A DNA stretch of 64,000 nt from Bacteroidota bacterium. Its GTDB lineage: Bacteria > Bacteroidota > Bacteroidia > NS11-12g > UBA9320. Where the stretch lies: contig WGNA01000007.1 in the NCBI GenBank assembly GCA_016124755.1, forward strand, positions 62,001 through 126,000. Direction: 5' to 3'. Position numbers and translations under genes: made by a program. Below are positions 27,297 to 29,580 of this stretch, piece by piece. Under the pieces are notes generated by a model. It did no database searches. It worked only from the letters and a program-made list of their open reading frames with translations, and had not been told where the DNA came from. Numbering within the stretch: position 1 is the stretch's first letter; every line of letters begins with the position of its first letter.

Positions 27297-27983
27297 ATGT
27301 CGAACCAACCGGTAATTTCCATTCAGAACGCTTTTATTTTTCAAAGCAACGCCTCATTAGTATTGCACGACATCAGTCTTTCCATTCAAAAAAGTGAATT
27401 CGCTTATTTGATTGGTAAAACCGGTTCCGGGAAATCATCTCTTCTGAAAACTCTGTATGGCGAGTTGCCGTTGCGCGAGGGAGAAGGTTCTGTTGCCGGT
27501 ATGAATCTTCGGGAACTCAACCGAAAATCAATTCCCCAGCTCCGACGAAAAATCGGAATTGTATTTCAGGATTTTCAGTTGCTCAGCGACCGGTCGGTTT
27601 TAGACAATCTTCTTTTTGTTTTAAAAGCAACCGACTGGAAAGACAAAACTAAAATGGATAAGCGAGCTAAAGAGGTTTTGGAATTAGTGGGTCTGGGTTC
27701 TAAAGATTACAAGTATCCGCATGAACTTTCCGGAGGAGAACAGCAAAGGGTTGTGGTTGCGCGGGCACTTCTCAATTCTCCGGAAGTGATACTCGCCGAC
27801 GAGCCGACAGGTAACCTCGACCCGGATGTTTCGGATGACATTATGCATTTGCTTCACGACATCTGCGATAAAGGAACTGCTATTCTGATGGCCACGCACG
27901 ACTATCGAATCATCAACAAATTTCCGGGAACGATTTTTCAATGTGCCGAGCAAACGATTTCGAGGAAAGAGGCGATTATTTGA
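27297..27983 (+). CDS. ftsE: FtsE-like cell-division ABC transporter ATPase (228 aa)
   Basis: ABC ATPase. Walker A is GKTGSGKSS (about residues 40-48), the Q-loop is IVFQDFQLL, the signature is LSGGEQQRVVVARALL (about 142-157) and Walker B is VILADEPTGNLDP. The MATHDY switch histidine follows. The sequence pattern (FAYLIGKTGSGKSSLLKTLYG, DRSVLDNLLFVLKAT) fits the Bacteroidota FtsE group, which works with FtsX to control peptidoglycan hydrolases at the septum. No ftsX lies next to it; the only FtsX-family permease in the window is at 31182-32402, and it looks more like LolC/E. An unrelated LolD-type role remains possible. Confidence 0.85.
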   Translation: MSNQPVISIQNAFIFQSNASLVLHDISLSIQKSEFAYLIGKTGSGKSSLLKTLYGELPLREGEGSVAGMNLRELNRKSIPQLRRKIGIVFQDFQLLSDRSVLDNLLFVLKATDWKDKTKMDKRAKEVLELVGLGSKDYKYPHELSGGEQQRVVVARALLNSPEVILADEPTGNLDPDVSDDIMHLLHDICDKGTAILMATHDYRIINKFPGTIFQCAEQTISRKEAII

Positions 27984-28103
27984 ATTGTTAAAGGCCTAGT
28001 TTTATTGAATTTTATTTCTAATTAATAATCATTTCAACCCTTTGTATTTAGTAACAATTAAGTACTTAATGTTGGTTTGAAATTCCACACCGTTGAGAAT
28101 AAA

Positions 28104-28309
28104 TTCCGATCTTTCGACTGGGGAGGGGTGGCTTTAGCCCGGCAGGTTTTCGCTGTAACTTAATTCATACAATTTATCTCAAAATTGAGAATATGATACC
28201 CGAGTTTCTCTGGAATAAATTTCCAATTCCAACTCTCCGCGTTCTCAAAATACAAACCGCACCAACATTTCTAAATGTAATTAATCTGCGCTCTCTGCGT
28301 GAAAAATTA
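28104..28309. repeat. intergenic repeat, copy 1 (206 bp)
   Basis: First of two long direct copies. It begins TTCCGATCTTTCGACTGGGG and ends in CTCTCTGCGTGAAA. Inside are a hairpin-forming core GGCTTTAGCC and the inverted repeat ACATTTCTAAATGT. Compared with copy 2 it lacks an 11-base insert near the middle. It lies between ftsE and the convergent methyltransferase gene. Confidence 0.9.
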
Positions 28310-28350
28310 AACGCTTAATTAAATCAATTCCAGATTTGTTAATCAAACAT

Positions 28351-28567
28351 TTCCGATCTTTCGACTGGGGAGGGGTGGCTATAGCCCGGCAGGTTTTCGC
28401 TGTAACTTAATTCATACAATTTATCTCAAAATTGAGAATATGATACCCGAGTTTCTCTGGAATAAATAAGCGTCGTTTTTCCAATTCCAACTCTCCGCGT
28501 TCTCAAAATACAAACCGCACCAACATTTCTAAATGTAATTAAACTGCGCTCTCTGCGTGAAACATTG
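28351..28567. repeat. intergenic repeat, copy 2 (217 bp)
   Basis: Nearly identical to copy 1 apart from an 11-base insertion (AAGCGTCGTTT, about 28468-28478) and a few substitutions. Its core is the perfect palindrome GGCTATAGCC, where copy 1 has GGCTTTAGCC. Copies 1 and 2 start 247 bases apart. Confidence 0.9.
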
Positions 28568-28649
28568 ATTCATTTTTAAGTTCGGCAATTGCACCTAAAA
28601 ATTAAGTGTTTAAAACACTACGGTTTTTTGCATAGCCCGTTAATGAACT

Positions 28650-28695
28650 CGATCTTTCGACTGGGGAGGGGCGGCTATAGCCCGGCAGGTTTTCG
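28650..28695. repeat. intergenic repeat core, copy 3 (46 bp, truncated)
   Basis: Only the first 46 bases of the repeat are present (CGATCTTTCGACTGGGG to CAGGTTTTCG), again with the palindrome GGCTATAGCC. The change GGGGTGG to GGGGCGG is the only other difference in the core. That the core survives alone suggests it is the conserved functional or mobile unit. No coding sequence is evident in the whole stretch 27984-28823. Confidence 0.85.
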
Positions 28696-28823
28696 TATGC
28701 TCGTTTTGAGTCCGAACAATTCAGATTCATACTTATAAAATCTGATATAGTATCATTCCAACCGAAAAACCTCCTTATTGAAACTAAAAAAATACTATTG
28801 ATAAAAATTAGAAATAAAAACCC

Positions 28824-29558
28824 TTATTTCTTAATACCGGAAATAACAATATTCGGAGTAAATACCACGTCGTGCCAGGTGCGGGCGGTCGCGAACAGAA
28901 TTATCTTCATCCAGGTTTTATATTTCCACCAGATGATTTTTCTAAAAAATTCTTTCAACGGATTTTCAATAAACATATAACCCTCATCCACCTTCACATT
29001 CGTAAATCCGCATGAAGACATTACTTGCATTGAACTGTTTTTATTGAGAAAAACTTCGTGGGTAAAATCGGCAAAGGCAAAAACAGATGCCTGCGGAGAA
29101 TCCATATTCGGAGTTCTGAAAATCGCCTTGCCCCCATCTTTTAATGCACCTCTCACCAGACCCAGAAATTCAACCAGTTCGTCTTTCGATAAATGTTCAA
29201 TCAGGTCGATGGCGGTTATTACATCAAATGAATTTTGATGACTGCCAAGAAATTCCAACGCGTTTGCCAGCTCCACATTTTTAACTCCAAATGTCGAAGC
29301 CATCTGAACCTGCTCGGGACTCAGGTCAATTCCCCGTGCATTTGTATATCCAAGGTCTTCCGTAGCTTTTAGAAATGAGCCTGTTCCGCAACCCACATCC
29401 AACAGTTGAATGGATTTATCATCGGGAAGATGTTTTTCAAATTCTCTTCTGAAGTATCGTCGTTGTTGTTCGAAGTGAACAAAACGAGCCTTATCACCAT
29501 CCACACCTGAGTGCGTGGAATAATAATTTTCGTAAAGTGTTTTCCGGTAATTGAACAT
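28824..29558 (-). CDS. class I SAM-dependent methyltransferase (244 aa)
   Basis: Rossmann-fold methyltransferase. Motif I is LLDVGCGTGSFL (about residues 52-63), motif II is the acidic end of ARGIDLSPEQV, motif IV is FDVITAIDLIEHL and the post-motif is GGKAIFRTPN. The C-terminal 40 residues (EFFRKIIWWKYKTWMKIILFATART) are hydrophobic/amphipathic and may touch the membrane, as in lipid or glycan O-methyltransferases of the UbiG/Coq3 group. The substrate is unknown. The start was placed at ATG 29558 because the upstream ATG at 29579 sits inside a -7 box. It is divergent from rnhB. Confidence 0.85.
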   Translation of the reverse strand: MFNYRKTLYENYYSTHSGVDGDKARFVHFEQQRRYFRREFEKHLPDDKSIQLLDVGCGTGSFLKATEDLGYTNARGIDLSPEQVQMASTFGVKNVELANALEFLGSHQNSFDVITAIDLIEHLSKDELVEFLGLVRGALKDGGKAIFRTPNMDSPQASVFAFADFTHEVFLNKNSSMQVMSSCGFTNVKVDEGYMFIENPLKEFFRKIIWWKYKTWMKIILFATARTWHDVVFTPNIVISGIKK

Positions 29559-29572
29559 CCGCAGAGGGTGGG

Positions 29573-29580
29573 CAAACATA
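29573..29580 (-). promoter_or_regulatory. -7 box (TATGTTTG) of the methyltransferase gene
   Basis: Exact TAnnTTTG on the minus strand, 14 bases before ATG 29558. It is separated by only two bases from the divergent rnhB -7 box at 29583-29590. Confidence 0.55.

Follow-up and report, generated by a model that had tools for sequence, protein, structure and literature searches.

The repeats near 28 kb of the window, by which we mean the whole 64,000-nucleotide stretch of Bacteroidota DNA that was analyzed, form a composite intergenic array built around a bipartite site of fixed geometry, a palindromic box followed by a G-rich core. Box and core change slowly, homogenization within arrays is centered on the core, payloads between the sites are shared by different arrays, and the arrays are biased toward gene ends. 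Judging from the sequences, we give about an even chance to the reading that the site is bound by a protein and that recombination at the core reshuffles the arrays.

Two long copies of the repeat in the window, of 206 nt (28104-28309) and 217 nt (28351-28567), are identical at 202 of 206 aligned bases; besides the four substitutions, copy 2 has 11 extra bases, TAAGCGTCGTT, at 28467-28477. A third copy (28650-28695) has only the 46-base core in common with them, at 98% identity. The earlier note had described this arrangement, i.e., two near-identical copies told apart by an 11-base insert and a third consisting of the core alone, and it had also placed the motifs GGCTATAGCC (GGCTTTAGCC in copy 1), CTCCGCGTTCTC, and CTCTCTGCGTGAAA correctly. 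The coordinates given there omit a part of the unit, the palindromic box TAARYRYTTA upstream of each core. The features of the array and its neighbors are as follows.

27297-27983, + strand: left neighbor, ABC transporter ATPase gene, 3' end toward the array (top NCBIfam score FtsE, below its cut-off)
28059-28068, + strand: box 1, palindromic TAARYRYTTA element, TAAGTACTTA, at -49 from core 1
28104-28309, + strand: copy 1 of the earlier note, core and long payload
28108-28140, + strand: core 1, 33 nt, GATCTTTCGACTGGGGAGGGGTGGCTTTAGCCC (model match C25:90057-90142)
28235-28246, + strand: CTCCGCGTTCTC motif of payload 1
28291-28304, + strand: CTCTCTGCGTGAAA motif at the end of payload 1, the slowest-changing part of the payloads
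28308-28317, + strand: box 2, TAAACGCTTA, at -47 from core 2
28351-28567, + strand: copy 2 of the earlier note, core and long payload
28355-28387, + strand: core 2, 33 nt (model match C25:90306-90389)
28467-28477, + strand: 11-base insert of copy 2, TAAGCGTCGTT
28493-28504, + strand: CTCCGCGTTCTC motif of payload 2
28549-28562, + strand: CTCTCTGCGTGAAA motif at the end of payload 2
28603-28612, + strand: box 3, TAAGTGTTTA, at -48 from core 3
28651-28683, + strand: core 3, the closing core, without payload, its right flank soon unique (model match C25:90601-90685)
28824-29579, - strand: right neighbor, SAM-dependent methyltransferase gene, 3' end toward the array

The array occupies the convergent gap between the ABC transporter ATPase and SAM-dependent methyltransferase genes. 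A search with 15 core bases and up to three mismatches matched the window three times, always at these copies, versus 0.37 matches expected; together with the 87 genome copies at E<0.01, this excludes chance. The likeness of copies 1 and 2 does not extend over a whole unit. Their payloads are ~99% alike (2 of 159 compared bases differ), whereas beyond the payloads neither box nor spacer is related between the two, the spacers differing at 17 of 31 bases. Payload and spacer therefore do not always move together, and tandem duplication of whole units was rejected as the sole process in the window.

The complete site is ~81 nt long and consists of the box TAARYRYTTA, ~38 unconserved bases, and the 33-base core with consensus GAACTTTCATCCGGGGAGGGGTGGCTATAGCCC. 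The box starts exactly 48 bases ahead of the core in 71 of 77 copies, at -49 in three copies, and at -47 in one; it is absent in the remaining two, and no box at any other offset was found within 75 bases upstream of the core in these 77 sites. Two of the three boxes in the window thus depart from the usual spacing by one base (box 2 being the only one at -47), a point against the reading given above. When the 77 sites are aligned by the core, information is confined to the box, the core, and a weak TTTTTG block between them (-26 to -21). The spacers of first sites are mostly unrelated between arrays, with a mean identity of 0.35 versus 0.27 for shuffled sequences and a few related groups. Core bases 20-23 read GTGG in 48 copies, GCGG in 24, GTAG in 2, and otherwise in 3. 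The pattern of box plus TTTTTGC was found 15 times in the source genome, all of the matches listed being at arrays, and at most once per genome in 96 relatives. Since the spacing is fixed while the spacer sequence is free, box and core are probably contacted by a protein.

A family model derived from sequence alone (R1, built from 49 sites) yielded 89 core matches at E up to 1 in its own genome, 87 of them at E<0.01. For the underlying alignment A1, sites had to have the box at -48 and be less than 85% alike, which left 49 of 77. The earlier note had proposed an intergenic repeat family, which further copies in the genome should bear out, and these are plentiful. The 87 copies form 27 clusters on 17 contigs of the 4.05-Mb genome, including 7 single copies and 20 clusters with 2 to 11 copies; some clusters are at or near contig ends (C39, C35, C4, and C26), and the assembly may undercount copies. 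With copy 2 as query, BLASTN found 94 matches in the same assembly at E up to 10, and 28 regions around BLASTN matches were read to define the arrays.

Outside the source genome, the exact core pattern was found in none of the other genomes searched (1/97 in total), and a core with up to three mismatches was present in 2 of 108 genomes of the order, namely the source genome and G008 (one copy). By these patterns the core family appears almost private to the source genome. A looser core pattern searched against genome_contigs matched two records, contig JAHEKB010000146.1 of G008 (MAG Bacteroidetes bacterium isolate Ww572) and one Granulosicoccus contig, the latter taken for a chance match; a tighter pattern had no match there. 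The core in G008 lacks the box at -48, and the second model match in that genome is weak (E 0.003). Because G008 is 88% complete with 6% contamination, its single core is thin evidence. A viral, plasmid, or phage origin was rejected, as the core pattern was found in 0 viral contigs and blastn of 28104-28567 retrieved no plasmid or phage record. Literature searches on mosaic and intergenic repeats and on CTCTGCG strings found no published description of the box-core family.

Arrays run head-to-tail, opening with box, spacer, and core; every further unit contributes a payload followed by those three elements. They start and finish with the same core, the usual end being a core that gives way to unique sequence within a few bases. 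Unit lengths are near 100 and between 220 and 335 nt, with a few longer units. The payloads (65-300 nt) are mostly gene-free: short ones leave ~65 nt before the next spacer, producing the 100-nt units, and long ones contain CTCTGCGAACTC and CTGCGTCTCTGCGTGAAA. Payload clustering yielded sets inside single arrays as well as sets common to different arrays, and a chimera at L041 fuses one long payload type to the tail of another near the CTCTGCG motifs. CTCTGCG arrays without core are also present in the source genome (L052, with 150-nt units, and L046), and the long payloads thus appear to be a different repeat that the arrays have acquired as filler. Strings of the CTCTGCGT type, which the earlier note linked to intergenic repeats of Flavobacterium, were found in core-free arrays of the source genome and in arrays elsewhere in the order, with 14 matches in genome G079.

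Several loci show variants of this layout. L052 (G000:C23:43.4-43.9 kb) contains four tandem units of ~150 nt with CTCTGCG motifs and neither core nor box, and L046 (G000:C33:21500-29000) is a core-free CTGCGTCTCTGCGTGAAA...CACAACGACACAAAGCC array around genes for a Fic-domain protein and a small nucleotidyltransferase. L053 (G000:C30:40.2-41.0 kb) has three units of ~305 nt with a diverged core, GGGGAAGGGGTTGGCGTAAGCCC, and the box in its usual place. In G079, which belongs to another family of the order, CTCTGCG/CGCAAAG arrays adjoin arrays of GACCCGGCCTTCCCGGGTC palindromes (L090, L094, L103, L105, L106, and L109) similar in layout to the core arrays and unrelated in sequence. A second, longer intergenic repeat of ~340 nt at L041:2160-2506, with AAAGTAAGCAAAAAATCAAGTCGG and CCGGGGCTATCCCGCC, matches 11-12 further loci at 77-96% and is often located beside core arrays. 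Head-to-head array pairs with cores on opposite strands are found at L037:3884-4075 and L038:2032-2216; their start regions overlap, ~120-150 bp apart, and between the two loci the array starts agree at 82-84%. A 194-aa secreted-looking ORF without a Pfam match (L049:2921-3505) is located inside a core array, where it replaces the stretch from mid-spacer to mid-payload. At L034, genes for an ArsR-type regulator and an AHSA1 protein are located between two cores, and this locus may represent two single sites flanking an operon.

Mismatch rates across nine sets of homologous units were 0.42 for the spacer, 0.18 for the payload, 0.095 for the core, 0.091 for the box, and 0.030 for the CTCTGCG motifs, the last rate being biased low because the motif was scored wherever one sequence matched. 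The comparison covers 39 of 53 units, i.e., those in homologous-payload sets or of the 100-nt type, the latter assigned by length and location instead of BLAST. The spacer rate exceeded the payload rate in all nine sets, and the core rate was below the payload rate in six; the exceptions are the small sets L036 and L044, where the core changes as fast as the payload or faster, and the one-pair W set. The slow change of box and core could result from gene conversion alone, without selection.

Sites with unrelated spacers are more alike within the same array than between arrays at core positions 8-11 (0.889 versus 0.600, permutation p 0.0005), over the 8 bases preceding the core (p 0.0005), and over bases 37-44 after it (p 0.004); the likeness at -15 to -9 is not significant (permutation p 0.13). 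When first sites were compared with internal ones across 19 arrays in an independent test, one of five blocks gave a signal, namely -8 to -1 (p 0.005; the other four, p 0.24-0.40). The homogenization of core variants and ~8 flanking bases within arrays has the look of a gene-conversion footprint: with the signal extending to either side, gene conversion seeded at the core, or unequal exchange there, fits better than one-sided target duplication.

Among 24 gaps that contain an array and have a gene on either side, 13 are convergent, 10 tandem, and 1 divergent, compared to 18, 101, and 25, respectively, among 144 array-free gene pairs of the same DNA. Convergent gaps are enriched (Fisher p 2e-5, or 7e-4 when weighted by intergenic length), and divergent gaps tend to be rarer (p 0.08 by pairs, 0.01 by length). 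Genes in this count are plain ORFs of at least 100 aa called without a gene finder, and none of six array-overlapping ORFs had a Pfam match. Removal of a core-like match to the looser pattern, located inside a gene of the window near 10 kb and judged a chance match, and merging of the tandem row of L049 into its cluster are both part of the change in the count from 14/11/1 to 13/10/1. The contig-end clusters C39, C35:80 kb, and C4, as well as C2, were left out as having no usable flanking pair, and C20:77-79 kb was counted as two gaps. The cores in tandem gaps face both directions. The bias toward gene ends would also be the outcome of plain promoter avoidance.

It is possible, if doubtful, that the repeat is a non-autonomous mobile element of the MITE or REP kind, with a transposase encoded elsewhere in the genome and arrays formed by repeated insertions beside the core. 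The dispersal to 27 places on 17 contigs would suit such an element, as would the unrelated first-site spacers, by which the sites are not simple copies of one block, and the array-specific 8 bases before the core resemble a short target duplication. However, the homogenization extends to both sides of the core, not one. A precise target duplication was not found; a small one may underlie these 8 bases. Terminal inverted repeats as in MITEs were not found around the copies (27800-29000 contains only two distant short inverted pairs), and collections of viruses, phages, and plasmids do not contain the core. The search for a linked transposase was negative; the three Y1-transposase loci (PF01797) have neither core nor CTCTGCG within the surrounding 3.2-3.3 kb. 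A REP/RAYT assignment was rejected, as a consistent GTAG/CGTC tag is lacking and the PF01797 loci are without core. We consider unlikely a topoisomerase or terminator role at gene ends, by which the arrays would absorb supercoils or stop read-through between convergent genes, a role that gyrase-bound BIME-2 arrays of E. coli may have. The excess of convergent gaps, the rarity of divergent ones, and the fixed bipartite geometry are what one might expect of it, and E. coli gyrase is reported to cleave these BIME-2 repeats in vivo (PMC6379681). Nonetheless, the two-way orientation of cores in tandem gaps speaks against it, and terminator prediction over 27500-29300 made a single call, which is inside the upstream gene, with none in the array or next to it.

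We regard as very improbable that each unit is transcribed into a small RNA or RNA-stability element. The Bacteroidetes -7 element has the consensus TAnnTTTG. Of 77 copies, 44 have a TTTG at -24 to -21 that might be reminiscent of it, but TA is at the expected place in only one of these 44; the TTTTTG at -26 to -21 was therefore rejected as a -7 box, and with it a promoter. Positions 24 and 29 of the core, the third pair of a GGC/GCC stem, show a two-sided, pair-preserving change in 7 of 77 copies but are broken in 10, a weak hint of an RNA element. The RNA-stability element suggested in the earlier note found no support: eight unit stretches fold no better than their shuffles (z -1.5 to +1.2), RNAalifold detected no covariation, and no Rfam match came near threshold (one reached 16 bits versus a threshold of 140). 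Equally little probability attaches to integron-like cassettes, in which box and core would be a tyrosine recombinase site and the payloads cassettes. The array topology (a first site, then payload and site repeated), the exchange of payloads between arrays, the two-part site of fixed length, the 194-aa gene inside the L049 array, and an Xer- or integron-integrase-like recombinase in the genome all recall such a system. That recombinase, however, scores 197 bits versus a cut-off of 265 for integron integrase (TIGR02249) and 217 versus 220 for NF040815. The five Phage_integrase genes (two XerC/XerD-like, this one below the cut-offs, and two remote) have neither core nor CTCTGCG in the surrounding 4-5 kb (0/5 loci); on contig C34, an array is ~3 kb from one Phage_integrase gene. 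Further, the payloads of 65-300 nt mostly lack genes, and crossovers are observed in payloads as well as at cores. As to attC-type folded ends, RNAalifold showed no conserved fold in the box-core site. An integron was rejected on the sub-threshold score of the best integrase and the lack of a linked core. A further reading, a host-run cassette system with an Xer-like recombinase lacking integron parts, in which mostly non-coding cassettes and occasionally a gene would be inserted into and swapped between chromosomal arrays, seems to us quite improbable; if true, the arm box, the fixed 38-base spacer, and the core would serve as its recombination site.

Among described repeats, the closest in build are the neisserial NIMEs, in which a short repeat separates exchangeable sequence families of 30-160 bp in arrays of 200-2700 bp, the repeat dRS3 being a single 20-bp inverted repeat, ATTCCC(N8)GGGAAT, with ~700 copies (PMC3898611). 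The box-core arrays are likewise intergenic and alternate one short repeat with exchangeable families. As far as the cited description extends, they differ in the bipartite site with fixed spacer, a core that is not a dRS3-type inverted repeat, the number of copies (87), and unrelated sequence; ATTCCC(N8)GGGAAT is absent from the core alignment A1 and the profile. The box-core array is NIME-like in working and is not a NIME. BOX elements of Streptococcus pneumoniae are modular, with variable tandem internal modules, distinct ends (boxA and boxC), and a predicted RNA fold, and are dispersed between genes (PMC3049150). Modularity, variable number of tandem modules, and intergenic dispersal are common to both, whereas in our arrays, set against that account, every module has the same site, no fold is supported, and there is no boxA-boxB(n)-boxC order. 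REPs are short palindromes with a GTAG or CGTC tag (PMC3733652); the family studied here resembles REPs and BIMEs in being small, abundant, lineage-private, extragenic, and clustered at gene ends, but, compared with REPs as characterized in that source, its units are long and directly oriented, there is no consistent tag, and RAYT-type genes are unlinked. Integron cassette arrays have the same topology of sites and exchangeable inserts; the box-core arrays differ in having no integrase above cut-off, no conserved attC-like fold by RNAalifold, and mostly gene-free payloads. From these sequence comparisons we file the box-core repeat as a kind of intergenic mosaic repeat, since its build resembles the neisserial mosaic elements, with no sequence in common with them as they are presented in the cited source; it shows no consistent REP tag, no terminal inverted repeats of MITEs, no BOX order of modules, and no integron integrase above cut-off.

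In the preferred reading, of a protein-bound bipartite site reshuffled by recombination, a host DNA-binding protein or complex would read box and core together at gene 3' ends, by analogy with nucleoid or topoisomerase factors that read other gene-end repeats. The direct repeats of the core would let adjacent units recombine, so that arrays would expand and contract; the same recombination would homogenize the cores inside each array, and payloads, including the separately existing CTCTGCG repeat, would be swapped between arrays. The recombination enzymes, as well as any benefit to the host, we infer. The family also shows that, from unrelated sequence, Bacteroidota have come to carry mosaic arrays of the Neisseria type, and that such arrays appear to incorporate other repeats, here CTCTGCG, as filler. 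If the site is protein-bound, these arrays would be lineage-private, self-multiplying sets of binding sites at gene ends, each with a molecular clock of its own in its free spacer sequence, as opposed to the fixed spacing, and they would allow a test of whether mosaic repeats persist by function or by recombinational copying alone.
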